34,833 bases of DNA from Gammaproteobacteria bacterium (GTDB taxonomy: Bacteria > Pseudomonadota > Gammaproteobacteria > UBA6429 > Thiohalophilaceae): the NCBI GenBank assembly GCA_026197095.1, contig JAPHTF010000166.1:1-34833 (forward strand), in the 5' to 3' direction. A program made the translations under genes and the position numbers. Below the pieces are notes generated by a model. That model made no database searches. It worked only from the letters and a program-made list of their open reading frames with translations, and was not told the origin of the DNA. How positions within the stretch are numbered: position 1 is the stretch's first letter; every line of letters starts with the position of its first letter. Shown piece by piece: positions 12,590 through 28,493 of the stretch.

Positions 12590-14161
12590 TCAAATCAGGC
12601 TCGGTTGGTTGTCATCTTCAACAGGTCCGATCAAAGAGCGCCCGGTCATTTCAGTTGGCTTTTCAATGCCCATTAAATAAAGCATGGTTGGGGCAACATC
12701 GGATAACGCGCCACTGCTTTCCATCTTAGCTTCGCGACCAAAATAGACAAAAGGCACAGGGTTTGTTGTATGTGCGGTATGCGGCTGGCCTGTTTCTTTA
12801 TCAAACATCTTTTCCGCGTTACCGTGGTCAGCAGTAATTAACATCTCACCACCTGCCTTCTCAATCGAAACGAGTAAGCGCGCTATACAATCATCAATTG
12901 TTTCAATGGCTTTTACTGCGGCATTAAAGTTACCACTATGCCCTACCATATCCGGATTAGCATAGTTGCAAATAATCACATCGTATTTACCACTTTCCAT
13001 CGCTTCAACCATGTGATCAGTTAACTTGATCGCATTCATTTCAGGTTGTTGATCATAGGTCGCGACATTGGGAGACGGTACTAAAATGCGTTCTTCAAAC
13101 TCAAAAGGTTCTTCACGTCCACCATTGAAGAAAAAAGTCACATGGGCATACTTTTCAGTTTCGGCAATACGCAGTTGGTGCATCCCCAGCTGAGAAATGT
13201 AATCCCCAAAAACATTGGTTAACCGTTCCGCAGGATAAGCAACCGGAATATCATATTCAGAATGGTATTCAGTAAGGCTGGTGAAGCGACCTAACTTCGG
13301 CACACGCTTTCGTTCAAAAGCATCGAAATCAGCTTCAATAAACGGACGAGTAATTTGACGGGCACGATCAGAACGGTAATTCATAAAAATAACAACATCG
13401 CCGTCTTCAACTCTAACCGGTGATCCACCCTCTTTTACAATGGCCGTTGCTTTAACAAATTCATCGTTTTCACCGCGCTCATAAGCATCTTCGAGTGCTT
13501 CCATGGCTGAAGTGGCCTGAAACTCACCAATACCATCAGTAATTAATTCATACGCGCTTTGAATCCGCGGCCAACGGTGATCCCGATCCATGGCGTAATA
13601 ACGCCCTATAACTGAAGCGAATTGGCCATTACCGAATTCATCAAACTTTTCTTGCATCAAGTTTATCGAATCTGCAGCACTTTTAGGGGGGGTATCACGA
13701 CCATCAAGAAAAGCGTGTAAATAAACGTTTTTAACGCCTTTTTCCACTGCCAGCTGGCACATGGCATGAATGTGCTCTTCATGACTGTGTACGCCGCCGG
13801 GGGACAACAATCCCAAAATATGGACCGCTTTGTTATTCGCTACGGCGAGTTCTACGGATTCAACCAGGGTATCGTTAGTAAAAAATGAGCCCGTTTTAAT
13901 CGAACGGCTGACGCGAGTGTATTCCTGATAAACCACACGACCTGCACCCAGGTTTAAATGACCTACTTCAGAATTACCCATTTGCTCAGCAGGCAGCCCT
14001 ACTTCCGCGCCTGAGCCTTTTATAAATGTGTGAGGGTGCTCATTCCACAGCTTGTCCCAGGTGGGTTTATGTGCGGAGGCAATGGCATTACCCTCTATTT
14101 CATCTGAATGGCCAAACCCATCCAGAATGACTAAAACAATTGGTTTTAAATTCAATGACAT
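12590..14161 (-). CDS. gpmI: 2,3-bisphosphoglycerate-independent phosphoglycerate mutase
   Basis: 523 residues, slightly longer than the usual 510-515. It converts 3-phosphoglycerate and 2-phosphoglycerate in the cytosol with Mn as cofactor. VLVILDGFG at the N-terminus binds metal; the phosphoserine nucleophile is S64 in [16 protein letters not shown]. Further family motifs are [45 protein letters not shown] and [11 protein letters not shown]. It is the first gene of the gpmI-envC-ctp-yibQ-yajL run, and it is divergent from the ArsR-type regulator. The shared 241-base gap must hold both promoters. Confidence 0.97.
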
Positions 14162-14250
14162 AGCTTTTTAATTACTTATTACCATAAATTGTATTTTAGA
14201 CATATTCTAAAAAAAATCTAATTAATACGCTAGGATACCGATTTTGCGAG

Positions 14251-14268: not shown

Positions 14269-14300
14269 TTAAATATTAATTAACCCTTCTCAAACGAGTG

Positions 14301-14313
14301 ATTATTGTATAAT
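14301..14313 (+). promoter_or_regulatory. Probable -10 element of the ArsR-type gene, with overlapping palindrome
   Basis: TATAAT at 14308-14313 is a consensus -10 box, 90 bases before the ATG. It is part of the palindrome ATTAT-TGT-ATAAT. A weak -35 (CCTTCT, 17-base spacing) precedes it. Overlap of a palindrome with the -10 is typical of ArsR-family autorepression. Confidence 0.45.
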
Positions 14314-14402
14314 GTTTTGTTAATAAAGAGCAGACTCCGATTTGTTAGAAATCAGGGTTTAAAGCCAATTATAAAATATTATTTAATTTGGGGATTCCAG
14401 AA

Positions 14403-14738
14403 ATGGATGGACTTGCTATGACTGAAACATCACTTCCAGCATTAATGACGCAGGATGACGACATTGAGCGTGCTTCACGTTCACTAAAAGCCATGTCGCA
14501 CCCTTTACGCTTAAAAATACTGTGTACGCTTGGGGATCAGGAGATTAGTGTTCAAGATATCGTTGAGCATGTTGGGACATCACAAAGTAATATTTCTCAA
14601 CATTTAGCAATTTTACGCGATAAAGGTATCCTGTTTTCACGAAAAGACGCCAATCGCGTGTATTACAAAGTGGGTGATACACGAACTTTGCGCCTGATTG
14701 ATATGATGCGTGAAGTTTTTTGTTCAGCTGAGCTTTAA
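14403..14738 (+). CDS. ArsR-family regulator with the SqrR/BigR cysteine pair
   Basis: 111 residues from the ATG at 14403, which has GGGGA eight bases upstream; a TTG 15 bases earlier is less likely. It has a winged helix-turn-helix: SLKAMSHPLRLKIL, recognition helix SQSNISQHLAIL, wing FSRKDANRVYYKV. The metal-binding ELCVCDL motif is replaced by EISVQDIV, so it is not a classical arsenic or zinc sensor. It has exactly two Cys, C41 in the second helix (KILCTL) and C107 in the last helix (REVFCS). These positions match the persulfide-sensing pair of SqrR/BigR/YgaV. The next genes are DUF2892 and a rhodanese, the same pairing as ygaV-ygaP. A sulfide/persulfide-responsive repressor is the best reading, inferred but well supported. 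Confidence 0.85.
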   Translation: MDGLAMTETSLPALMTQDDDIERASRSLKAMSHPLRLKILCTLGDQEISVQDIVEHVGTSQSNISQHLAILRDKGILFSRKDANRVYYKVGDTRTLRLIDMMREVFCSAEL

Positions 14739-14807
14739 AATTCACTTTATACCCCCCATATCCAAGGGTATTCTCAACAACATTAACTTAATTTGTAAGG
14801 TGTAACT

Positions 14808-15023
14808 ATGTCTATTACTCGCAAAATTCGCATTATGGCCGGCTTCGTTGTTTTATTGTCATTAGCACTTGGTGTTCAAGCGAGCCCAATCTTTCAAAAT
14901 GTTAACTGGTTATGGTTAACCGCTTTTGCTGGATTTAACTTATTCCAAAGTGGCATTACCGGTTTTTGTTTACCAGAAATTGTTTTAAAGAAAATGGGTA
15001 AAGACTGCGATTCTTGCTCTTAA
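14808..15023 (+). CDS. DUF2892 (YgaP C-terminal-like) membrane protein
   Basis: 71 residues with two membrane segments, about 9-25 and 32-52. The core FNLFQSGITGFCLPEIVLKKMG matches the GFNLxQxxxTGFCP/ILxKLG pattern of DUF2892, the domain that anchors the rhodanese YgaP in E. coli. Here it is a separate protein. The tail ends in CDSCS, a CxxC pair that could carry persulfide or bind metal. It is 69 bases after the ArsR-type gene, with AAGGTGT before the ATG, so it is probably the regulator's co-transcribed target. A terminator follows. Confidence 0.85.
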   Translation: MSITRKIRIMAGFVVLLSLALGVQASPIFQNVNWLWLTAFAGFNLFQSGITGFCLPEIVLKKMGKDCDSCS

Positions 15024-15082
15024 TATTTAAGCTATGATCTAGTGAAACTGTCATCACTAGGTGCAAATATTTCAAATAAACT

Positions 15083-15114
15083 ACCCGTGGTTGATTTTAT
15101 AGCCACGGGTTTTT
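15083..15114 (+). terminator. Rho-independent terminator after the DUF2892 gene
   Basis: Stem ACCCGTGG (15083-15090) and CCACGGGT (15103-15110), with weaker inner pairs, then TTTT. It separates the regulator-DUF2892 unit from the rhodanese gene; only 33 bases remain for a separate promoter, so partial read-through is plausible. Confidence 0.85.
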
Positions 15115-15147
15115 AATTCTATATACTTAATCTAAGCCGCGAAAACC

Positions 15148-15573
15148 ATGAATCAACTTATTACATTTACCAGCAATAACACCATTCTTGTTATTTCTAT
15201 TCTGATCGTTTCACTCATGCTTATCTACAGCTTTATCGGTGAAAAATTACGTGGCTACAGCTCAGTATCCCCTGTGCAAAGCACACAAATGATTAACCGT
15301 GATGATGCCATCATGCTTGATGTACGGGAAATTAATGAATATAGCGAAGGCCATATTATTAATTCGGTACATATCCCACTTTCAAACTTAAATTCACGAA
15401 TGTCAGAACTTGATAAGCATAAGTCACAAAAGGTGATTGTTGCTTGTCGTTCTGGTCACCGTTCTTCGAACGCGTGCGCAAACCTGAAGAAAAATGGTTT
15501 TGAACAAGTGTTTAATTTGAGTGGTGGTGTAATGGCATGGCAAAATGCCAACCTGCCATTAATTAAAAAATAG
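15148..15573 (+). CDS. yibN: Membrane-anchored rhodanese, YibN-like
   Basis: 141 residues. One N-terminal membrane segment, about 8-29 (NTILVISILIVSLMLIYSFIG), precedes a single rhodanese domain, about 43-138. The catalytic loop is ACRSGHRSSNA with C100; the six-residue loop fits sulfur transfer. DVREINEYSEGHI is the conserved N-terminal motif. It sits next to grxC-secB-gpsA, as yibN does in E. coli. The sulfur donor and acceptor are unknown. The neighbouring thiol-disulfide proteins and the ArsR/DUF2892 pair suggest persulfide handling at the inner membrane. Confidence 0.92.
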   Translation: MNQLITFTSNNTILVISILIVSLMLIYSFIGEKLRGYSSVSPVQSTQMINRDDAIMLDVREINEYSEGHIINSVHIPLSNLNSRMSELDKHKSQKVIVACRSGHRSSNACANLKKNGFEQVFNLSGGVMAWQNANLPLIKK

Positions 15574-15610: not shown

Positions 15611-15865
15611 ATGCCTAAAGTCGAAATTTTCTGTACTCCATTTTGTCCATATTGCATTCGAGCAAAAAAGTTACTCGATAGTAAAAATGTTGAATATGAA
15701 GAAATCCGTATTGATCTTGAACCTGCGCGTCAGGATGAAATGGTTGCACGTGCTAAACGTACTTCTGTTCCACAAATTTTTATTGATGATTATCACGTCG
15801 GTGGTTGTGATGATTTATTTGAACTTGAAGCTGAAGGTACTCTCGATTCACGTTTAGGATTGTAA
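15611..15865 (+). CDS. grxC: Glutaredoxin 3
   Basis: 84 residues, the usual length of GrxC. The active site CPYC is at 12-15, preceded by C8; TSVPQIFID holds the cis-Pro, and HVGGCDDLFELE binds glutathione. It reduces disulfides and mixed disulfides with glutathione in the cytosol. It is 38 bases after the rhodanese and 7 before trxC, in the conserved grxC-secB-gpsA order. Confidence 0.96.
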   Translation: MPKVEIFCTPFCPYCIRAKKLLDSKNVEYEEIRIDLEPARQDEMVARAKRTSVPQIFIDDYHVGGCDDLFELEAEGTLDSRLGL

Positions 15866-15872
15866 GTAAACT

Positions 15873-16328
15873 ATGAGCCAAAGCGTACATATTGTTTGCC
15901 CACATTGCGACAGCATTAACCGCCTCCCTGCTGAAAAAATTTCAGCACATAATCAATCTGCTCAAGCGGCAAAATGCGGTAAATGTAAAAATACTTTATT
16001 TAATGGCGAAGTACTCGAGCTGAATGCAGGCAACTTCAGTAAGCATGTATCACGTAACGATATACCCGTGCTGGTTGATTTTTGGGCACCCTGGTGCGGA
16101 CCCTGTAAAATGATGGCACCCATTTTTGCCCAGGCCGCTCAACAATTACAACCTCAAATTCGTGTTGCAAAAGTGAATACCGAAGCAGAGCAACAACTCG
16201 CTGCACAATTTCAAATACGCAGCATTCCTACTCTGGCTATTTTTAAACAGGGAAAAGAAATTGCCCGCACCGCAGGTGCAATGGATTTACAAAGTCTCAT
16301 TAGCTGGGTTAAACAAAATTCAAATTAA
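15873..16328 (+). CDS. trxC: Thioredoxin 2 with N-terminal zinc ribbon
   Basis: 151 residues. A zinc-binding domain with C9-x2-C12 and C35-x2-C38 precedes a thioredoxin fold with WCGPC at 74-78 and cis-Pro in SIPTLAIF. This is the TrxC layout, an oxidative-stress thioredoxin. It lies between grxC and secB, an addition to the enteric yibN-grxC-secB-gpsA order. The ribosome site is weak and only 7 bases separate it from grxC, so coupling is likely. Confidence 0.95.
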   Translation: MSQSVHIVCPHCDSINRLPAEKISAHNQSAQAAKCGKCKNTLFNGEVLELNAGNFSKHVSRNDIPVLVDFWAPWCGPCKMMAPIFAQAAQQLQPQIRVAKVNTEAEQQLAAQFQIRSIPTLAIFKQGKEIARTAGAMDLQSLISWVKQNSN

Positions 16329-16377: not shown

Positions 16378-16845
16378 ATGTCTGATACAAAAGAAACGAC
16401 TAACGAAAACACTGAACCGCATTTTTCAATTGAAAAAATTTATTTAAAAGATGTTTCTTTTGAATCACCTTCCGCACCAGGCGTTTTTACTCAAGACTGG
16501 ACTCCAGAAATAAATATGGATCTTAATTCTCAAGGCCACGCGGTTGAAAATAGCGTTTTTGAAGTTGAGTTAAGTATCACTGTTACGGCAAAAAATAATG
16601 ATAAAACAGCGTTCTTAGTTGAAATTAAACAATGCGGAATTTTTACTATTAGTGGAATGGATGATGCTAACTTAAACGGTATGTTAGGAAGCTTTTGTCC
16701 AAACCTTTTATTCCCCTATGCACGTGAAGCCGTATCTGATCTTGTAACGAAAGGTGGCTTCCCACAATTATTACTTGCGCCGGTTAATTTTGATGCTATT
16801 TATGCACAACATTTGCAAAACAGTGAAGGTGCAACAGTTAACTAA
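16378..16845 (+). CDS. secB: SecB, protein-export chaperone
   Basis: 155 residues, the normal length. FSIEKIYLKDVSFESPSAP near 17-35 and the YAREAVSDLVTKGGFPQLLLAPVNFDAIY block near 120-146 are SecB hallmarks. It is a homotetramer that holds precursors unfolded and hands them to SecA. AGGA lies 7 bases before the ATG. It is followed by gpsA after only 3 bases. Confidence 0.97.
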   Translation: MSDTKETTNENTEPHFSIEKIYLKDVSFESPSAPGVFTQDWTPEINMDLNSQGHAVENSVFEVELSITVTAKNNDKTAFLVEIKQCGIFTISGMDDANLNGMLGSFCPNLLFPYAREAVSDLVTKGGFPQLLLAPVNFDAIYAQHLQNSEGATVN

Positions 16846-16848
16846 AGC

Positions 16849-17877
16849 ATGAGTAATAACACGTCACAGACAATTGCTGTTCTGGGTGCGGGCTCATGGG
16901 GCACCGCACTGGCCATGTTACTTGCTCGCAATAATCAAGCGGTAAATCTTTGGTCGCATAATGCAGAACATGCAGCATTGATGCAGCAGAGTCGTGAAAA
17001 TAGTCGCTACCTTGCAGGACTCACTTTTCCGGAAAAATTAACGATTAGTGCTGATCTTGAAGCGACACTTAAAAATGTCAGCAATATTCTTATCGTCGTA
17101 CCCAGTCATGCATTTCGTGACACGCTAAAAACCATTAAACCCTTTTTAACAGAATCAAGCCGTATCGCCTGGGCAACAAAAGGGCTGGAAACAGACAGTA
17201 ACAAACTTTTACACCAGGTTGCTCTTGAAGAACTAGCAGAGCTCGTAGAATTCGGTCATAAAATTTCCCTCGCGGTTATCTCTGGCCCTACGTTTGCACA
17301 AGAAGTAGCGCAAGGATTGCCTGGTGCAGTAACCATTGCATCAAGCGATCAAAGCCTGGCCTTAGAGTGGGCTAATTTATTACACAATGATCACTTCCGG
17401 GCTTATACCGGTGATGATGTAGTAGGTGTTGAACTCGGCGGTGCCTGTAAAAATGTTATCGCCATTGCAGCAGGAATTGCAGATGGTATGGGCTTTGGTG
17501 CAAATGCACGTGCCGCATTAATTGCGCGCGCACTGGCTGAAATAACACGACTGGGTGTTTCGCTTGGCGCCAATGCAGAAACCTTCACGGGGTTAACCGG
17601 GCTTGGTGATTTAGTCTTAACCTGCACAGATGATCAGTCACGTAACCGGCGGACGGGGATTGCTTTAGGTCAAGGCAAAAATCTTCAGGCCGTTATAAAA
17701 GAAATTGGTCAGGTTGTTGAGGGTGTGGCAACAGCTAAAGAAGTGGTTGCATTAGCCAAAAAACAAAACATTGATATGCCCATAACTGAACAAGTTTATA
17801 ACGTATTATATAACCACTGCTCTCCAGAAAATGCGGTTAATGCTTTATTTAACCGAACAATTAAAAACGAAAATTAA
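16849..17877 (+). CDS. gpsA: Glycerol-3-phosphate dehydrogenase [NAD(P)+]
   Basis: 342 residues. The nucleotide loop GAGSWGTALA is at 13-22, the substrate motif is ISGPTFAQEVAQGLPGA, and the catalytic Lys lies in LGGACKNVIAIAAG. FTGLTGLGDLVLTCT is a further family signature. It makes sn-glycerol-3-phosphate for phospholipids. It is last in the yibN-grxC-trxC-secB-gpsA run. Its stop is 4 bases from the stop of the convergent hybrid kinase, so the two transcripts must overlap unless they end inside each other. Confidence 0.97.
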   Translation: MSNNTSQTIAVLGAGSWGTALAMLLARNNQAVNLWSHNAEHAALMQQSRENSRYLAGLTFPEKLTISADLEATLKNVSNILIVVPSHAFRDTLKTIKPFLTESSRIAWATKGLETDSNKLLHQVALEELAELVEFGHKISLAVISGPTFAQEVAQGLPGAVTIASSDQSLALEWANLLHNDHFRAYTGDDVVGVELGGACKNVIAIAAGIADGMGFGANARAALIARALAEITRLGVSLGANAETFTGLTGLGDLVLTCTDDQSRNRRTGIALGQGKNLQAVIKEIGQVVEGVATAKEVVALAKKQNIDMPITEQVYNVLYNHCSPENAVNALFNRTIKNEN

Positions 17878-21215: not shown

Positions 21216-22976
21216 ATGGTGGCAGCCGCTCCACGTAAAAAAATTCGCTTAGGTGATTTACTTGTTGAGAAAGGTCTTATTTCTGAAGACCAGCTCATGC
21301 AAGCATTGGCAGCACAAAAAACTACCGGACAAAAACTCGGCCGCACATTAACTTCAAGCGGCCTCGTGACCGAAGAACAAATGCTGGAATTACTCTCTAC
21401 CCAGCTCCAGGTTCCATTCATTGATCTTAAAAAATACAATTATGATGCTGAAACAGTTCAGTTAATTCCTGAAACTCTGGCTCGTCGTTATCGTGTTGTT
21501 TCTTTGAAAAAAAATCCTGATAGCAGCATGCTGGTTAGCATGGCAGATCCAACAGATATTTTTGCTTACGACGAACTGTCTAAACAACTTAAATGTCATC
21601 TGCACCTCGCGGTATCGCGTGAATCAGAAATCATGTCTACCATTGATATGGTTTACCGCCGTACCAGTGAAATTTCAAACCTGGCTGAAGAACTTGGTGA
21701 TGAACTTGCTGAATCTGATATAGATTTACAGCAACTCGTTCAAAGCGAAGATGTCGCCAATGCCCCCGTTGTAAAACTACTGCAATCTATTTTTGAAGAT
21801 GCTGTGCAAATAGGTGCATCCGATATTCATATAGAACCTGATGAAACAGTTTTACGTATTCGTACCCGTGTTGATGGTGTATTACAAGAACAGGTGATGA
21901 AAGAAAAACGCATTGCCAGCGCATTAGTCTCGCGTCTAAAACTGATGGCAGGTTTAAATATTTCAGAGCGACGCATTCCGCAAGATGGTCGTTTTAATAT
22001 TCGTGTTCGTGATCGCAGTATAGATGTGCGTCTTTCAACCATGCCAATTCAAAACGGTGAATCTGTTGTAATGCGTTTACTTGATCAATCAGGCAATACG
22101 CTGATTCTTGATCAGCTAGGCATGAATAAAGACTTGCTCGAACATTTTAGAAAAAATATTCATCGACCCCATGGCATGATTCTCGTTACCGGCCCAACCG
22201 GTAGTGGTAAAACAACGACCCTTTATGCTGCTTTATCTGAATTGAACAAAGCTGAAAAGAAAATTATTACTGTAGAAGATCCTGTGGAATATCGTTTACC
22301 ACGCATCAACCAGGTACAGGTTAATAGTAAAATTGGATTACACTTTGCCACGGTTTTACGTGCGGCTTTACGTCAGGATCCGGACATCGTCCTCGTCGGC
22401 GAAATGCGTGACCAGGAAACGGCGTCTATTGGCTTACGTGCATCTATTACCGGTCACTTAGTTTTATCTACTTTACATACCAATGATGCTATCTCTACTG
22501 TAAACCGTTTAATTGATATGGGTGCTGAAGGTTTTCTTGTTGCTACCGCATTAAGAGCCGTATTAGCACAACGTTTAGTCCGCAAAATTTGTAACAACTG
22601 TAAGACTGAATACACTCCGGAAAAACAGGAGACCATCTGGCTATATAGTTTATTGGGTAAAAATGCTGAACAGGCTAAATTTTTTCATGGCCACGGTTGC
22701 CCACAGTGTAATAACACCGGTTACAGTGGTCGTATCGGTGTATTTGAGTTTCTTGAAATTGATGATGAACTTGCAGATGATTTACGTCGTGAAGACTCCG
22801 CTGCTTTTGCTAAGCATGCCAAAGCAAGCCCTCTGTTCAGACCCTTTTCAAAACATGCAATGGAATATGCAACACAAGGTGTAACCTCACTTGAAGAAGT
22901 TATTCGGGTAACAGGCATGGTTGAAGAAGATCTTGAAGACCCTGAATTTCAACTTGAAAATAACCTGAGTGCTTAA
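21216..22976 (+). CDS. mshE: MshE, MSHA pilus assembly ATPase with c-di-GMP-binding N-domain
   Basis: 586 residues of the PilB/GspE type. The N-terminus has two tandem MshEN motifs: the first opens RLGDLLVEKG and closes ALAAQ, the second opens KLGRTLTSSG. In MshE this domain binds cyclic di-GMP. The AAA core has Walker A GPTGSGKTT at 326-334, the Asp box DIHIEPDE, Walker B DPDIVLVGEMRD and a His box in LSTLHTND. A tetracysteine zinc site follows (CNNC ... CPQC). It powers pilin extraction from the inner membrane. AAGGA precedes the ATG. It is the first msh gene here; upstream is pyrD, not mshN. Confidence 0.96.
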   Translation: MVAAAPRKKIRLGDLLVEKGLISEDQLMQALAAQKTTGQKLGRTLTSSGLVTEEQMLELLSTQLQVPFIDLKKYNYDAETVQLIPETLARRYRVVSLKKNPDSSMLVSMADPTDIFAYDELSKQLKCHLHLAVSRESEIMSTIDMVYRRTSEISNLAEELGDELAESDIDLQQLVQSEDVANAPVVKLLQSIFEDAVQIGASDIHIEPDETVLRIRTRVDGVLQEQVMKEKRIASALVSRLKLMAGLNISERRIPQDGRFNIRVRDRSIDVRLSTMPIQNGESVVMRLLDQSGNTLILDQLGMNKDLLEHFRKNIHRPHGMILVTGPTGSGKTTTLYAALSELNKAEKKIITVEDPVEYRLPRINQVQVNSKIGLHFATVLRAALRQDPDIVLVGEMRDQETASIGLRASITGHLVLSTLHTNDAISTVNRLIDMGAEGFLVATALRAVLAQRLVRKICNNCKTEYTPEKQETIWLYSLLGKNAEQAKFFHGHGCPQCNNTGYSGRIGVFEFLEIDDELADDLRREDSAAFAKHAKASPLFRPFSKHAMEYATQGVTSLEEVIRVTGMVEEDLEDPEFQLENNLSA

Positions 22977-22989
22977 TTAGAAAATCACG

Positions 22990-24225
22990 ATGCCCGTTTT
23001 TCAATACACAGGTCGCAACAACCAGGGTCAATCTGTCGATGGCAACCTTGAAGCTAATTCTGCTGATGCGGTTGCAACCCAGCTCTTAAGTACGGGTGTC
23101 ACACCGATTAATATTACTCAAGCGGATAAAGCTCAAGACACAAACGAAAAGAAAAACTTTAATTTTGACTTTAGTAAAAATAAAAAACCCACACTTGATG
23201 ATTTAACTTTATTTGCAAGACAAATGTACACCCTGATGCATGCAGGTGTACCCATAATCAGGGCTATTACAGGCTTAAGTGATACTACCCGAAATTTAGT
23301 CTTACAAAAAACATTACGTTCTGTTCGAGCTGAAATCGAAGGTGGTCATGAACTCTCTACGGCATTAGCACAATATCCTGATATTTTTTCTCACCTCTTT
23401 ATCAGCATGGTTCAGGTAGGTGAAAATACTGGTAATCTTGATGAAGTATTTTTACAAATAGCAGGTTACCTTGAGCGTGAAAAAGAAACACGTAACCAAA
23501 TTAAATCTGCCATGCGTTATCCCACCTTTGTATTGATCGCTATTACCGTTGCTATGTTTATTATCAACATGTGGGTTATTCCAACTTTTGCAAAAGTCTT
23601 TGCCGGCTTTGGTGCAGAACTTCCTCTGGCCACACGCATTTTACTCGGCACATCAGAATTCACTGTTGCCTACTGGCCCGTTTTATTAGGAAGCCTGATT
23701 ATTGCAGTTTTTGGAACGCGTTATTATGTCAAAACAGAGAAAGGACACTGGCAATGGGATCGCGCGAAGACACGCATACCCATTGTCGGCAGTATAATTT
23801 TACGTGCAACATTATCCCGCTTCGCACGGTCATTCTCTATGGCACTCAGTGCGGGCGTTCCCTTAGTGACAGGTCTCGGTCTTGTATCACGTGCAGTGGA
23901 TAATGTTTATGTCGGCGGCCATATTGCAGACATGCGTAACGGCATTGAACGTGGCGATACATTAACAAGAACCGCTGCAAGCACACAAATGTTCACCCCT
24001 CTCATTATTCAAATGCTTACTGTCGGTGAAGAAACCGGTAATGTTGATGATATGCTGAATGAAGTAGCCGATTTTTATGATCGTGAAGTTGACTATGATG
24101 TAAAAAATCTCACCAGTGCTATCGAACCGATATTGATTGTATTCATTGGCGCCATGGTACTGGTGCTTGCTCTGGGTGTATTCCTGCCTATGTGGGATCT
24201 TATGTCTGCTGCAAAGGGCAGGTAA
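22990..24225 (+). CDS. mshG: MshG, type IV pilus inner-membrane platform protein (PilC/GspF family)
   Basis: 411 residues. Two T2SSF domains (about 72-195 and 275-398) each carry the LTLFARQMYTLMHAGVPI-type entry and the VGENTGNLDEVF / VGEETGNVDDML signature. Three membrane segments lie at about 172-193, 220-241 and 378-400. It forms the rotor-like platform turned by MshE. It follows mshE by 13 bases and overlaps the next gene by one base (TAATG). Confidence 0.96.
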   Translation: MPVFQYTGRNNQGQSVDGNLEANSADAVATQLLSTGVTPINITQADKAQDTNEKKNFNFDFSKNKKPTLDDLTLFARQMYTLMHAGVPIIRAITGLSDTTRNLVLQKTLRSVRAEIEGGHELSTALAQYPDIFSHLFISMVQVGENTGNLDEVFLQIAGYLEREKETRNQIKSAMRYPTFVLIAITVAMFIINMWVIPTFAKVFAGFGAELPLATRILLGTSEFTVAYWPVLLGSLIIAVFGTRYYVKTEKGHWQWDRAKTRIPIVGSIILRATLSRFARSFSMALSAGVPLVTGLGLVSRAVDNVYVGGHIADMRNGIERGDTLTRTAASTQMFTPLIIQMLTVGEETGNVDDMLNEVADFYDREVDYDVKNLTSAIEPILIVFIGAMVLVLALGVFLPMWDLMSAAKGR

Positions 24226-24773
24226 TGAAACATTTCAATTCTCCTTTCAAACATGCTCAAAATGGTTTCACATTATTAGAAATGGTCGTTGTCATTGTTC
24301 TCGTTGGATTTTTAGGTTTAATAATTTTAGATCGTGCTTGGAAATTTCGCGTTTATGCAGAAGAAGCGGCTGTCACTTCCATCATTGGAAATATTCGCAG
24401 CGCATTGGGATTAGAAGTCGCCAAACTGGCAGTTCGTGGAAAAATCAAAAATATTGCAAACTTACATAATACCAATCCAATGAATCTAATGGCGCAAACA
24501 CCTGATAATTATATTGGTGAAGTTGACGACACTTCAAATGTTGAAGGTAAAGGTATTTGGTACTTTAATAAAAGTGACCACACTTTAAATTATACTGTGA
24601 GCTATACTGATAATTTTAAAAGCAATGTAAATGGAATTAAACGTACACGCCATCAACTTAAAATAGTGTATACCGATAATAATAAAAATAGCCGTTTTGA
24701 TGCAGGCATCGATGACATTAACGGTCTAGACTTAGTGGCAAAGGAACCCTATCGCTGGATAGTAGAAAAATAA
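24225..24773 (+). CDS. Pilin-like protein at the mshF/mshB position
   Basis: 182 residues from the ATG that overlaps the mshG stop; GGGCAGG lies just upstream. The prepilin leader ends HAQNG, then FTLLEMVVVIVLVGFLG, with Glu5 kept and a hydrophobic helix of about 20 residues. The globular part has no Cys pair and ends in PYRWIVEK. DNNKNSRFDAGIDD resembles a calcium-loop-like acidic turn. It is cleaved by prepilin peptidase and is probably a minor pilin. In Vibrio and Shewanella the order mshE-G-F-B-A applies; which of mshF or mshB it corresponds to is unclear, since I see no close family match. Confidence 0.8.
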   Translation: MKHFNSPFKHAQNGFTLLEMVVVIVLVGFLGLIILDRAWKFRVYAEEAAVTSIIGNIRSALGLEVAKLAVRGKIKNIANLHNTNPMNLMAQTPDNYIGEVDDTSNVEGKGIWYFNKSDHTLNYTVSYTDNFKSNVNGIKRTRHQLKIVYTDNNKNSRFDAGIDDINGLDLVAKEPYRWIVEK

Positions 24774-24800
24774 ACTTTATCTATAAAGTGAGAATACACA

Positions 24801-25406
24801 ATGGAAAATCTTTTATCTGATACGCTTGAAAGCACTTTTTTTAATATCATTATTGTTGGCGCTGCACTATCCATGCTTTATGGCTTTTGGCTAATCATTT
24901 CACCTAAAAGTGCCCTCACCCTTAATCAAAAAATTAACAAAAGCTTTTCGATGCGTGAAGCAACCAGGCCATTAGAAAAGCCAATTACAGTAGAACGTTG
25001 GTTTTATCGTTATGCAAAAGTTGCCGGCCTTTTATTAATGGTAGGATCAGTATATTTATTCTATTTATTATATTGGCAGTTAGATTTTAATTACTTAGCA
25101 AAAAGTTTACCGGGCCTTACAACTTTAATGTGGGAGTGGCTATTACAAGCATTTCAAATTTTCTTTACCATCATGTCTGCTGTCGTTTTTTTAATGGGCT
25201 TTTTAGTCCTGGTGCGACCTAGTCAACTCAAGCCTCTCGAAGAAAAGGCCAACTTTTGGATCTCTACCCGGCAAAAAATGCAATTCATGAGTGACAATAT
25301 GGGTCAGGCGGACAAATTACTTGCTCAATTTCCACGCCAATTTGGCGCGATCATTCTGGTAGCAGGCGCTATTGTTCTCTTAAATATGAATAAATTTAAT
25401 ATTTAG
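24801..25406 (+). CDS. Membrane protein of unknown function with two related halves
   Basis: 201 residues with four membrane segments (about 16-34, 71-92, 112-138 and 184-199). The halves look like a duplication: the first has GFWLIISPKSALTLNQKIN, a basic soluble stretch, then VAGLLLMVGSVYLF; the second has GFLVLVRPSQLKPLEEKAN, a similar stretch, then FGAIILVAGAIVLL. Each half is helix, R/K-P-rich loop, amphipathic stretch, helix. No known domain is recognised. It sits between the pilin-like gene and the major pilin, where mshB is found in Vibrio, so it probably has a pilus-related role, but no function is claimed. Confidence 0.75.
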   Translation: MENLLSDTLESTFFNIIIVGAALSMLYGFWLIISPKSALTLNQKINKSFSMREATRPLEKPITVERWFYRYAKVAGLLLMVGSVYLFYLLYWQLDFNYLAKSLPGLTTLMWEWLLQAFQIFFTIMSAVVFLMGFLVLVRPSQLKPLEEKANFWISTRQKMQFMSDNMGQADKLLAQFPRQFGAIILVAGAIVLLNMNKFNI

Positions 25407-25424
25407 AAGGTATTTACCGATATA

Positions 25425-25486
25425 AAGGTTTGTACTTAACCTTATTAATGCTATAAGATTAGATTAACTATATTCTTTAACCTTAT
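25425..25486. promoter_or_regulatory. Repeat-rich upstream region of the major pilin gene
   Basis: AAGGTT (25425-25430) and AACCTT (25438-25443) form an inverted repeat with a 7-base spacer. TTAACCTTAT occurs twice in direct orientation, 25436-25445 and 25477-25486, 41 bases apart, close to four helical turns. The 174-base gap before mshA is the longest in the pilus locus, so a dedicated pilin promoter is likely. No clear sigma-54 site was found. Confidence 0.35.
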
Positions 25487-25580
25487 GATTTATAGCTATT
25501 TTGTAGTTTCGCCATTATAACTATGTAGTGCTGAAACACTTTCGCAACTGCGGTTGCCACATAACTCAGGAGTTACACTC

Positions 25581-26081
25581 ATGAAAAAACAAGCCGGTTT
25601 TACGCTCATCGAGCTAATCGTGGTTATTCTTATTTTAGGTATATTGTCTGCGACAGCTTTACCTAAATTCGTCAATGTAGAAAATGAGGCACAAACAGGA
25701 GCGCATAACGGTGCTGCTGGTGCATTTCAAGCAGCGATCATGTTGACTCATGCAAAATGGATTGCACAAGGTAAACCAACCACTGGTGCTGCGCAGCTTA
25801 TCGATACAAATACATACGCCTTTATCAACGGATCTGGTTGGCCAGAGCATGTTGCTAATACTTCAGCAGCAGCAGTTGCAGCAGTAGATGCCACTGATTG
25901 TTCTGAGTTGTGGAATGGCTTATTCCAACAAAATGGACCTGTTGCTGATACGGCTGGTAGTAATGATTATACTGCTACATATGCGGCAAATGTATGTACC
26001 TTTACACGTACTGCTCTTACTACTTTAGATCTTCAATATAATAATACCAACGGGTTAATCACTATAGATGATACTCCTTAA
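25581..26081 (+). CDS. mshA: MshA-type major pilin
   Basis: 166 residues. Leader MKKQAG, then FTLIELIVVILILGILSATALPKF, a textbook type IV pilin helix with Glu5. The start is fixed by TCAGGAG eight bases upstream; a longer frame would add an atypical leader. Ala-, Thr- and Gly-rich globular domain with a Cys pair (ATDCSELW ... NVCTFTRT) as in MSHA pilins, forming the receptor-side loop. It has a separate upstream regulatory gap and a strong hairpin behind it, both typical of a highly expressed subunit. Confidence 0.92.
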   Translation: MKKQAGFTLIELIVVILILGILSATALPKFVNVENEAQTGAHNGAAGAFQAAIMLTHAKWIAQGKPTTGAAQLIDTNTYAFINGSGWPEHVANTSAAAVAAVDATDCSELWNGLFQQNGPVADTAGSNDYTATYAANVCTFTRTALTTLDLQYNNTNGLITIDDTP

Positions 26082-26096
26082 TTTGGTAGCACTATA

Positions 26097-26131
26097 AATA
26101 CAGGCATCTATATTTTATAGATGCCTGTATT
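26097..26131 (+). terminator. Strong hairpin between mshA and mshC (attenuator or mRNA stabiliser)
   Basis: A perfect 16-bp stem, AATACAGGCATCTATA (26097-26112) with its exact complement (26116-26131), around a TTT loop. The following bases are CTTTATAA, so the T-run is weak. It probably gives partial termination or protects the mshA mRNA 3' end, leaving less transcript for mshC onward. Confidence 0.75.
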
Positions 26132-26143
26132 CTTTATAACGCC

Positions 26144-26575
26144 ATGAAAAATACTGGTTTCACAATCGTAGAACTCATTGTTGTTATTCTTATTATTGGC
26201 ATTTTATCTGCTTCTATTGCTCCCCGTTTTTTTTCTGATAATGATTTCAAAGCCCGTGGTATTGCCGATGAACTCATTACCGCTATACGTCATGCCCAAC
26301 GTTTATCCATGACGCGTGGTGAAAACCATCGAGTCATTATCACCACAACCAATTATACTGTTGAAAAATTTGTTGCTGGTATCAGTACACCGGTTCGCCA
26401 TCCTGATGGTAGTACGTCCTTTAGCAAAACTTTTCCAGCTAATATTGTTACCACTGCTAAAACAATAGAGTTTGATCAACTTGGTCGCCCTATCCCAAAT
26501 AACGTAGCAACTGTTTCATTATCACCTTTTACTCTGACTGTAGAACAGGAAACGGGCTATGCGCATATTTTCTGA
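26144..26575 (+). CDS. mshC: MshC minor pilin
   Basis: 143 residues. Leader MKNTG, then FTIVELIVVILIIGILSASIAPRFF, with Glu5. The globular part matches the MshC/GspH-like minor pilins: FKARGIADELITAIRHAQRLSMTRG is the conserved helix with the RLSMTRG motif, and IEFDQLGRP follows. It is probably part of the pilus-tip priming complex. It comes 12 bases after the hairpin behind mshA and overlaps mshD by 17 bases. Confidence 0.93.
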   Translation: MKNTGFTIVELIVVILIIGILSASIAPRFFSDNDFKARGIADELITAIRHAQRLSMTRGENHRVIITTTNYTVEKFVAGISTPVRHPDGSTSFSKTFPANIVTTAKTIEFDQLGRPIPNNVATVSLSPFTLTVEQETGYAHIF

Positions 26576-27215
26576 CTCACAATCCGGTTTAAGTCTTATT
26601 GAAGCTATTATATTCATACTGATCATTTCTATTGGCTTAACGGGCATCATCAGTGTTTACCTCTACACAACAAAGCATAGTGCCGATACGATGTTGAGTT
26701 TAAAAACCGTTGAACTCTCACAGGCATTAATGGATGAGATTCTCAGTAAAGGCTACGATGAAAATACACCCGTAGGTGGTGGTTGTGTTGCTGGTTTTGT
26801 TGCGACAAATTGTAGCTCGAGTACTCTCGCACAGGCTACAGTAATAGGCAGTTTTGGGCCTAACCCAGGCGAAACACGCTCACGCTTTGATGATATTGAT
26901 GATTATCATAATCTTGCTTACTGTGGTGCTGGGGTTGCTAATCCACCTTCTCCATGTGCTGCTGGTAGCTGCCCTGCAAGCCCAAATAACTTTATCGATG
27001 AAACCGAAGCTGATATTTCAGCAAACTACGCAGGATACTCGGTATGTGTTCAACTATCATTTGCCGGTAATGAAATGAATAACGTAGCTCTGGTTGCACC
27101 AACTTTAAATAATCATGCGAATGTATTAACTAATGATGCCAAACGTATTGATTTGATCATTCGCGATCCACTCGATGCACGACTCACTTTTACTTCTTAC
27201 AAAGCCAATTTTTGA
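26559..27215 (+). CDS. mshD: MshD minor pilin
   Basis: 218 residues. Leader with SQSG, then LSLIEAIIFILIISIGLTGIISVY, keeping Glu5. LSLKTVELSQALMDEILSKGYDENTP is the MshD/PilV-like signature. FDDIDDYHNLAY, near 108-119, is another conserved MshD motif. Several Cys (six or more) lie in the loop region about 70-150, unusual among the neighbours and likely disulfide-bonded outside the cytoplasm. It overlaps mshC by 17 bases and ends 2 bases before the mshO ATG. Confidence 0.92.
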   Translation: MRIFSDSQSGLSLIEAIIFILIISIGLTGIISVYLYTTKHSADTMLSLKTVELSQALMDEILSKGYDENTPVGGGCVAGFVATNCSSSTLAQATVIGSFGPNPGETRSRFDDIDDYHNLAYCGAGVANPPSPCAAGSCPASPNNFIDETEADISANYAGYSVCVQLSFAGNEMNNVALVAPTLNNHANVLTNDAKRIDLIIRDPLDARLTFTSYKANF

Positions 27216-27217
27216 TT

Positions 27218-28093
27218 ATGTTAATTAAACAACAAAAAGGTTTTACCCTAATTGAAAGCATTATTACCATAATTATTATTGGGATTGTCGCCTCTACTGT
27301 GAGCTTAATTATTGGTAATTATTTAGAAAATTATGATGCAACCTCCAGGCGCACGAAGATGCAGACCTCAGCGCAACTGGCGATAGAACGTATCTCACGT
27401 GAAGTTCGCAATGCCTTACCTAATAGTGTCTGTATCCCTGACGATGCTGGTACAAATTGCATACCAACAACACCGGCAACACCAATAACACGAACAAAAG
27501 TTGCATTTATTAAAATAATAGATGCGGGGTACTATCAAGATACAAGTGGTGACTACCCAGATAATACCTCACACAGGGTATTGCCTGTTTCACCTGCGGC
27601 AGCATCTGACCAATTTGATATAGTCTCTGGCACTGATTTGCGTGTCCAGGTTGATGATCATGTTGCTGTTTACAATATTAATAACTCATCAATTTATACT
27701 GGCAACAACCTGTCAAAAGTAACCAGTGTTACACCCATGAATATTGATGGAGTCGCAGGAGATGACATTATTCGCTTAGAAATTAATAGCAAATCCTTTC
27801 CGCTCCACTCTCCTCAGCGACGCGTTCATATTATTGAATCAAACACCACTATATTTTATCTTGATGGCACTGATTTAAAATTAGGAAAAAGCGCTAATTT
27901 TGAAAATGTAGCATTTAACCCTACAGTACCTGCAAGCTCATATTTATTATTACAAAATGTCACTAACCTTTCTTTTAATTTTGATTCAGGTGGTCCACAA
28001 CGAGCAGGTTTATTACATATTGATTTAACGGTTGAAGATCAAGGTGAGCAAATTCATATAATCCATGAGGCACACGTTTACAATGTACCCTGA
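27218..28093 (+). CDS. mshO: MshO minor pilin
   Basis: 291 residues from the ATG at 27218; a TTG six bases earlier is in frame but lies inside the mshD stop. Leader MLIKQQKG, then FTLIESIITIIIIGIVASTVSLII. LAIERISREVRNALPNSV is the conserved PilW/MshO helix. It is a long pseudopilin with two Cys (VCIPDDAGTNC) early in the globular part. It overlaps mshP by 11 bases. Confidence 0.92.
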   Translation: MLIKQQKGFTLIESIITIIIIGIVASTVSLIIGNYLENYDATSRRTKMQTSAQLAIERISREVRNALPNSVCIPDDAGTNCIPTTPATPITRTKVAFIKIIDAGYYQDTSGDYPDNTSHRVLPVSPAAASDQFDIVSGTDLRVQVDDHVAVYNINNSSIYTGNNLSKVTSVTPMNIDGVAGDDIIRLEINSKSFPLHSPQRRVHIIESNTTIFYLDGTDLKLGKSANFENVAFNPTVPASSYLLLQNVTNLSFNFDSGGPQRAGLLHIDLTVEDQGEQIHIIHEAHVYNVP

Positions 28094-28493
28094 AGTAAAA
28101 CAAAAAGGTTTTGCTATTGTTAGTGCAATATTTCTTATTGTTGTTCTGGCTTTTTTGGGTGTTTCTATGGCGCGCATTTTAACTTCAGGGCAGCAAGCGA
28201 TAAATCAGGATATATCATCCTTACAAGCCTATTATGCTGGTCGTTCAGCACTGCAATGGAGTATGTACCAATCTATACTGGCGGATGCAGGAACTATAAC
28301 GCTAACTAACAATGATAAATACACTCTGACTTTTTCAAATGCTGGTCTGAATAACACAACAGCTGAAATTGAATTTAATATCAATACAGTTCTTGGGAAC
28401 AACTTTTACAATATTTCCGCTATGGCAGATTTTGGTACTGCAGGAAATCCTGAATTCAGCAGGCGTAATGTAGAAATACGTTTTGTTCCCTGA
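28083..28493 (+). CDS. mshP: MshP, minor pilin-like (PilX type)
   Basis: 136 residues from the ATG at 28083; an in-frame ATG at 28065 would give a longer leader. MYPEVKQKG, then FAIVSAIFLIVVLAFLGVSMARI, resembles a prepilin segment but lacks Glu5 (Ser in that area), as is usual for MshP/PilX-type proteins. The AYYAGRSALQWSMYQ helix matches the AxxAAxSGxxWA pattern of this family. It is a minor component of the pilus tip or assembly complex. It starts inside the end of mshO. Confidence 0.9.
   Translation: MYPEVKQKGFAIVSAIFLIVVLAFLGVSMARILTSGQQAINQDISSLQAYYAGRSALQWSMYQSILADAGTITLTNNDKYTLTFSNAGLNNTTAEIEFNINTVLGNNFYNISAMADFGTAGNPEFSRRNVEIRFVP

Follow-up and report, generated by a model that had tools for sequence, protein, structure and literature searches.

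A cysteine-pair ArsR-type regulator conserved at the gammaproteobacterial yibN cluster, a candidate reactive-sulfur-responsive autorepressor

Described sulfur-sensing ArsR systems and layout of the locus

The reactive-sulfur-sensor (RSS) ArsR proteins form a recognized cluster (SSN cluster 4, with SqrR, BigR, YgaV and HlyU) which, in the available passages of PMC10509353, is defined by a pair of Cys residues in alpha2 and alpha5 and whose genes have rhodanese neighbours. YgaV of E. coli, when bound to DNA, covers its own start site, and sulfide treatment abolishes its DNA binding, as stated in the available portion of PMC9774250. A survey of the gene neighbours of such regulators names sqr, sox, pdo, rhd, shdr and transporters; the gpmI/yibN/secB position is not named in the main-text section of that survey (PMC12423496). 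Here we have analysed an ArsR-type gene at this position in a stretch of 34,833 nucleotides (the window) from a gammaproteobacterial genome of the family Thiohalophilaceae. A literature search by title and start of abstract, with few subscription papers covered, returned no description of an arsR-yibN locus; the arsR subfamily conserved at the yibN cluster is one for which we found no prior description, although its kind is already known from YgaV and SqrR.

The regulator gene (arsR) lies divergently from gpmI and is followed by a free DUF2892 gene, a membrane rhodanese gene, grxC and trxC (Table 1), an order which the original prediction had read from the sequence and which open reading frames together with domain and profile matches bear out. 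The names gpmI, envC, secB and gpsA follow the E. coli counterparts. The same housekeeping cluster in the same orientation is found in E. coli (gpmM < > yibN-grxC-secB-gpsA-cysE), which however has no arsR, DUF2892 or trxC there. Farther along the window (21216-28493), the list of open reading frames holds a GspE/GspF-like pair and then a series of prepilin-like proteins.

Table 1. Coordinates of the features of the locus within the window.
Feature	Position	Strand	Basis and remarks
gpmI	12590-14161	-	ORF; 58% identity to E. coli gpmM; divergent neighbour of arsR
TTTTAGA-N5-TCTAAAA dyad, gpmI side	14194-14212	.
Conserved element upstream of arsR, candidate operator over promoter	14286-14333	+	Conserved in relatives
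ArsR-type regulator, 111 aa, Cys41 and Cys107	14403-14738	+	ORF; PF01022
DUF2892 (PF11127, YgaP-like_TM), free-standing, 71 aa	14808-15023	+	ORF and domain match; ends CDSCS
Intrinsic terminator	15083-15118	+	11-bp stem 15083-15110 and T-rich tail
yibN ortholog, N-terminal membrane anchor and rhodanese, CRSGHRS loop	15148-15573	+
grxC (glutaredoxin 3)	15611-15865	+	TIGR02181, 113 bits vs cut-off 90
trxC (thioredoxin 2)	15873-16328	+	NF008229, 164.8 bits vs cut-off 125
secB	16378-16845	+	ORF; 50% identity to E. coli SecB
gpsA	16849-17877	+	ORF; 51% identity to E. coli GpsA

As in the YgaV-YgaP pair of E. coli, a Cys-pair ArsR protein stands here beside rhodanese and DUF2892 functions, and the window's regulator is 41% identical to YgaV over 87 residues. 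The two systems nevertheless belong to different clades and different loci, and YgaP fuses its rhodanese to DUF2892 whereas the window has a YibN ortholog and a separate DUF2892 gene. Indeed, the rhodanese scores 85.5 bits against E. coli YibN versus 51.2 bits against YgaP, aligns with YibN at full length (144 columns, 31% identity) and has the same neighbours. It is therefore a YibN ortholog and not half of a split YgaP, as had been proposed for it together with the DUF2892 protein. The membrane anchor ascribed to it does stand, in that the N-terminal part of the sequence reads as hydrophobic.

Cysteine pair, fold and clade of the regulator

Translation of the arsR reading frame yields two cysteines in total, at residues 41 and 107, and an alpha3 region free of Cys, so that the SmtB/ArsR-type CxC of alpha3 (the metal/arsenic site of cluster 1) is absent; in both respects the original prediction was accurate. 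In an AF2 model (mean pLDDT 79, with both ends poor), C41 is placed in helix 34-43 (alpha2) and C107 in the last helix, 93-110 (alpha5), both outside the DNA-reading helix 61-73. Since residues 16-110 of the model superpose on residues 16-110 of SqrR from Rhodobacter capsulatus (6o8m, 95 residues), C41 and C107 correspond to the SqrR pair, which carries the same numbers, as had been predicted. Each of the two is kept in 110/110 loci, in a protein whose positions 14 to 107 are mostly near-invariant, and 154 of a wider set of 155 orthologs keep both. The sole exception, L238 (genome G259), has Val for Cys107.

Sequence and fold comparisons point in the same direction, to differing degrees. The best sequence matches in the PDB are BigR (known from Xylella and rhizobia; top, 66.3 bits), HlyU, YgaV and SqrR, at 58-66 bits, followed by NolR at 52 bits and then a match at 42. 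The top 22 Foldseek rows are HlyU, NolR, BigR, SqrR and YgaV. The best fold match is HlyU of Vibrio, which has the same Cys pair (Z 17.1), followed by SqrR (16.5); a CzrA mutant reaches 15.5, so this comparison does not separate the sulfur sensors from the zinc sensor CzrA, and the common fold is no proof of the signal. BigR offers a further likeness in S. medicae, where it adjoins a sulfurtransferase/dioxygenase and has an AT-rich stretch upstream. The window's protein nonetheless lies under the curated cut-off of the NCBIfam BigR equivalog NF040642 (75.4 bits vs 155) and, unlike the BigR-Blh system, has no Blh or TauE among the identified adjacent genes.

In the tree, the window's family and the known sulfur sensors are split together from the metal sensors and others (29 rows vs 8) with support of 97/95; the family, paralogs included, forms a clade of its own (96/97), sister to the known-sensor clade (89/85), all three supports coming from a bootstrap that was not fully settled according to the program. 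This tree is a rebuilt one, from which 12 rows had been dropped (three long outgroups together with Agro_L254 and, for thinning, five orthologs, two paralogs and one further outgroup) and to which seven PDB chains had been added; in the first tree, with its long outgroup branches, the window's family and the known sensors also stood apart, weakly. The expected grouping with SqrR, BigR and YgaV thus holds against the metal sensors but not within their clade, to which the window's family is a sister; SqrR and HlyU, too, belong to the sister clade. Sequence, Cys pair and tree support assignment of the regulator to the reactive-sulfur-sensor ArsR group, with which the fold is compatible, and by the same sequence evidence it is a separate sister subfamily of SqrR/BigR/YgaV/HlyU, conserved at the yibN cluster.

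Two alternative readings of the protein bear on this assignment. It is recognized by the general NCBIfam 'metalloregulator ArsR/SmtB' model (84.3 vs 55) and its fold resembles that of CzrA about as well, as would suit a sensor of metals or metalloids, the kind to which most annotated ArsR/SmtB proteins belong; yet alpha3 has no Cys, the whole protein has two, SmtB, CadC, CzrA and NmtR lie on the other side of the 97/95 split, and no metal exporter is found among the identified neighbours, all of which makes metal sensing the least probable of the readings weighed here. Very unlikely as well is an ArsR protein without an inducer site, repressing constitutively or by its level alone. NolR, for which we know of no inducer site, does fall inside the known-sensor clade of the tree, but both Cys of the window's regulator are almost absolutely conserved despite lying outside the DNA-reading helix.

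Further related proteins were encountered along the way. Some genomes have, in addition to the ortholog, a second ArsR about 53-58% identical to the window's and with both Cys kept (L257-L262), and in the window's own genome a 225-aa protein (L002, G000:C90:39351) joins an ArsR-type HTH to a rhodanese domain.

The conserved element and the gpmI-side dyad

Upstream of arsR the window carries a conserved element with the core ATTATTGTATAATGTTTTGTTAATAAA at 14301-14327, which includes TATAAT at 14308-14313. Its 48-base consensus is matched at 30 or more positions in 67 of the 108 loci with enough upstream sequence, giving 47 distinct sites, in which bases beyond the TATAAT hexamer are also invariant (T26, A28, T29); arms of the form TATTA...TAATA can be read from the consensus. 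A weaker core, TATTATYGTAT (at least 10/11 bases), occurs in 98/151 loci versus 1.7% of shuffled sequences. In the window's own genome, a 31-column profile finds one strong site (E 8.7e-6, the next at 0.5), and 37 of the 40 family genomes have strong sites, 38 in all, each of which shares the strand of arsR and precedes the gene by 32-316 bp. One genome, G017, has two copies 221 bp apart (G017:C404:2295 and 2516).

Across the class sample, a site at E <= 1e-3 is found in 28/274 genomes, all of which carry arsR, and the 25 class sites outside the window's family all lie 30-290 bp upstream of the gene. None appears at this threshold in the 135 arsR-negative genomes, nor in the other 111 of the 139 arsR-bearing ones, in which the element has thus diverged or is absent. 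Such sites served to train the profile, and filtering in the class scan was strict; strong sites elsewhere would have been equally detectable, and none appeared. Furthermore, a search for a regulon beyond the locus gave no second strong site in the window's own genome (31-column model, 150 of 4010 candidates scored), though weaker sites may occur there. In four family genomes searched for a rhodanese, with the question of whether the element outlives arsR, the best matches were 32-40% identical and none was a clear YibN ortholog.

With strong sites at arsR only, and with the element overlapping TATAAT, the element is likely the operator of a single-locus autorepressor, to which the ArsR protein would bind. 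Since the element covers TATAAT, a dimer sitting on it would obstruct the promoter, which is how YgaV acts at ygaVP; the window's regulator would in this respect resemble YgaV, which binds over its own promoter (PMC9774250, available portion). The SqrR site offers no parallel here: ATTC-N8-GAAT is not enriched in the window (19 vs 24 expected) and is lacking upstream of arsR, apart from one near-match at 14241 that is within chance. It is possible, if doubtful, that the element is instead merely a strong conserved promoter. It does contain TATAAT; a simple sigma-70 scan (outside which other -35 types lie) did not list it. However, the invariant T26, A28 and T29 and the TATTA...TAATA arms of the 47 sites would be unusual for a plain promoter across families, and no site occurs in the 135 arsR-negative class genomes, although gene loss could remove a promoter too.

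On the gpmI side of the intergenic region stands a separate dyad, TTTAGACNNNGTCTAA, seen also in L281, L290, L291, L292, L293 and L294 and perhaps a peroxide/iron regulator box with gpmI in its regulon. The dyad TTAGACNNNGTCTAA, at 10 or more of 12 bases, is present in 68/107 arsR-bearing versus 1/20 arsR-free gpmI loci, and a related dyad pattern in 47/74 arsR loci with gpmI versus 1/32 without. It was considered as a second ArsR operator and set aside, since exact copies elsewhere adjoin other genes. In five genomes of the family the adjacent gene is rubrerythrin-like (Pfam was run on one, the others being near-identical in sequence); a sixth genome has its copy flanked by a di-haem cytochrome c peroxidase gene and a LysR-type gene, and the seventh copy, in L280, is found near an aspartokinase-like ORF. 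The rubrerythrin and peroxidase neighbours fit a peroxide or iron regulator, and the dyad is probably the site of another, peroxide-linked regulator rather than of this ArsR, which may possibly bind it as well.

Distribution, transcription reach and YibN

The original prediction described the regulator, DUF2892 and rhodanese genes as inserted into, or grafted onto, the conserved cluster. The position of arsR proves instead to be class-wide, so the locus is not an insertion in this genome. Within the family, 39/40 genomes match the regulator at E <= 1e-3, 36 of these 39 (the window's own included) at 79% identity or more, with G007 contributing a fragment only. The class sample has matches at E <= 1e-25 in 139/274 genomes, the best E-value being only 1e-33 or weaker in nine of the 139, and the phylum sample at E <= 1e-28 in 46/349, of which three reach at least 65% identity (the window included), all of this class, and the others 50-60%. 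A contig scan returned at least 577 relatives, the best 80 of which were taken as loci; Thiohalophilus, Thiorhodospira, Allochromatium, Sedimenticola and Thiohalocapsa are among them. Sulfur-oxidising type strains with the locus include Thiohalophilus thiocyanatoxydans DSM 16326 (L041) and Allochromatium warmingii DSM 173 (L111). Median identity over these 80 loci is 85.6% for ArsR versus 69.8% for GpmI and 54% for SecB and GpsA, a contrast inflated by their having been chosen by ArsR similarity.

In the window, the divergent side of arsR carries gpmI, envC and a third gene, which we take to be carboxy-terminal-protease-like. Among the 148 loci with at least 1.2 kb upstream, the nearest divergent gene is gpmI in 107, envC in 34 and the protease in 5, and two (L043, L064) have none of the three. 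Downstream of arsR, a rhodanese is found in 151/155 loci, and in three of the remaining four the sequence ends within 341 bp. The fourth, L125 (G197), has 1.5 kb downstream of arsR without a rhodanese; the upstream element is present there.

A remnant of arsR survives in place in L224 (G237), its DNA-binding part deleted in frame and both ends kept, with DUF2892 and YibN still beside it, and G107, which has the same genus code as G237, carries an arsR ortholog at 82% identity. The HTH-deleted remnant points to arsR loss elsewhere rather than gain here. Parsimony on a SecB and YibN tree counts 17 changes of arsR presence, a number which fits repeated loss and for which horizontal transfer is also possible.

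The best 80 of at least 577 loci have a rhodanese in 78, secB in 74, gpsA in 72, gpmI in 45, grxC in 35, trxC in 26 and DUF2892 in 8, counts lowered by contig ends and divergence. The presence of grxC and trxC at part of these loci could speak for a general thiol-redox (disulfide or peroxide) switch, in which a C41-C107 disulfide formed in oxidative stress would induce thiol-repair proteins; indeed H2O2 sensing and control of thioredoxin are reported for a different ArsR protein, RexT (PMC8960804, in part). We consider this unlikely. RexT-type sensors use a proximal alpha3 Cys and belong to another cluster, while HlyU, with the same Cys pair as the window's regulator, is unreactive to H2O2 and specific for persulfide in vitro, as reported in the available passages of PMC10509353; moreover, most of the 80 loci have no detected grxC or trxC whereas nearly all have a rhodanese. 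HlyU differs from the window's regulator, in turn, in activating another set of genes.

How far transcription from the arsR promoter extends appears to vary. The window has a terminator between DUF2892 and yibN (-17.7 kcal/mol, z -5.2), with a similar stem in L004, L006, L007, L009, L010 and L035 and none found in L005; a simple scan places a terminator before the rhodanese in 17/107 loci, those of the window's type included. The gap before the rhodanese in arsR loci has a median of 99 bp and is as short as 6 bp. The unit had been described as running on into grxC and trxC, which is right for gene order, but the strong stem splits off yibN. In many lineages transcription probably reads through into yibN, but less so in the window's genus, where, given the terminator, the direct target would be arsR-DUF2892.

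A separate DUF2892 gene occurs in 18/110 loci. The CxxC ending ascribed to its product is indeed present (CDSCS), though restricted to 7/18 DUF2892 rows, of which six belong to the window's genus and the seventh is nearly a copy of them; an 'FC' after the second membrane segment supplies the Cys common to 18/18 rows. In L004 the CxxC tail (window 15006-15023) is lost to a stop codon. The window's own genome has a second PF11127 protein (L033, G000:C36:1724), which scores 77.3 bits compared with 44.8 for the window's.

On balance, we think that the locus probably encodes a homodimeric winged-helix autorepressor of arsR(-DUF2892)-yibN that responds to reactive sulfur, and that YgaV and SqrR provide the best models for its mode of action, with persulfide as the putative signal. 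In this scheme, the reduced ArsR dimer would bind the upstream element over the -10-like hexamer, keeping arsR-DUF2892 from being transcribed and, where no terminator intervenes, yibN and the genes beyond it as well. As persulfide or polysulfide rises, C41 in alpha2 and C107 in alpha5 would become bridged by sulfur atoms and the bridged dimer would leave the DNA, allowing the YgaP-like membrane protein and the YibN sulfurtransferase to be made. GrxC and TrxC, encoded next door, could reduce persulfides.

The rhodanese itself shows a pattern relevant to this proposal. The active loop of the window's YibN looks intact, as judged from its sequence, and the catalytic Cys is present in 132/132 readable distinct arsR-bearing sequences versus 34/43 arsR-free ones (Fisher p 1.6e-6 with no control for descent, 132/0 vs 34/9, the truncated L010 excluded), while CxxGxR is present in 95/133 versus 10/43 (p 3e-8, likewise with no control for descent, 95/38 vs 10/33). 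In 144 thinned rows, the figures with and without arsR are 103/103 versus 32/41 for the Cys and 67/103 versus 10/41 for CxxGxR. In 7 independent pairs, the association of the YibN loop with arsR is not significant (median p 0.625 and 0.5). As to the sampling, 40 arsR-negative loci were hand-picked among the SecB matches listed, and 20 added 'arsR-positive' loci were mostly chosen for lower identity, two of which (L241, L242) proved to have no arsR and were counted as negative along with E. coli. In E. coli, with no arsR at the locus, the YibN loop is DGSGMQC and lacks the Cys at its usual position; the available text of PMC12282094 reports one at the other end of the loop, as well as a link to YidC. 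In the accessible part of PMC10215317, expression of E. coli YibN did not raise cellular sulfane sulfur and no YibN activity is reported.

A broader and more speculative scenario, which we rate as improbable, would have the gammaproteobacterial ancestor carry sensor and catalytically active YibN as a single unit, a class-wide sulfane-sulfur checkpoint over the YibN/SecB export-and-thiol cluster with sensing through a single strongly conserved operator; in lineages losing the sensor, E. coli among them, the sulfurtransferase loop of YibN would then have decayed, the protein being retained only for a membrane role as a YidC partner. On the reading of a reactive-sulfur-responsive autorepressor, the locus would tie reactive-sulfur sensing to YibN, and a regulator so far without a name, present in about half of the class genomes sampled (139/274), would gain a name, an operator and a likely signal.
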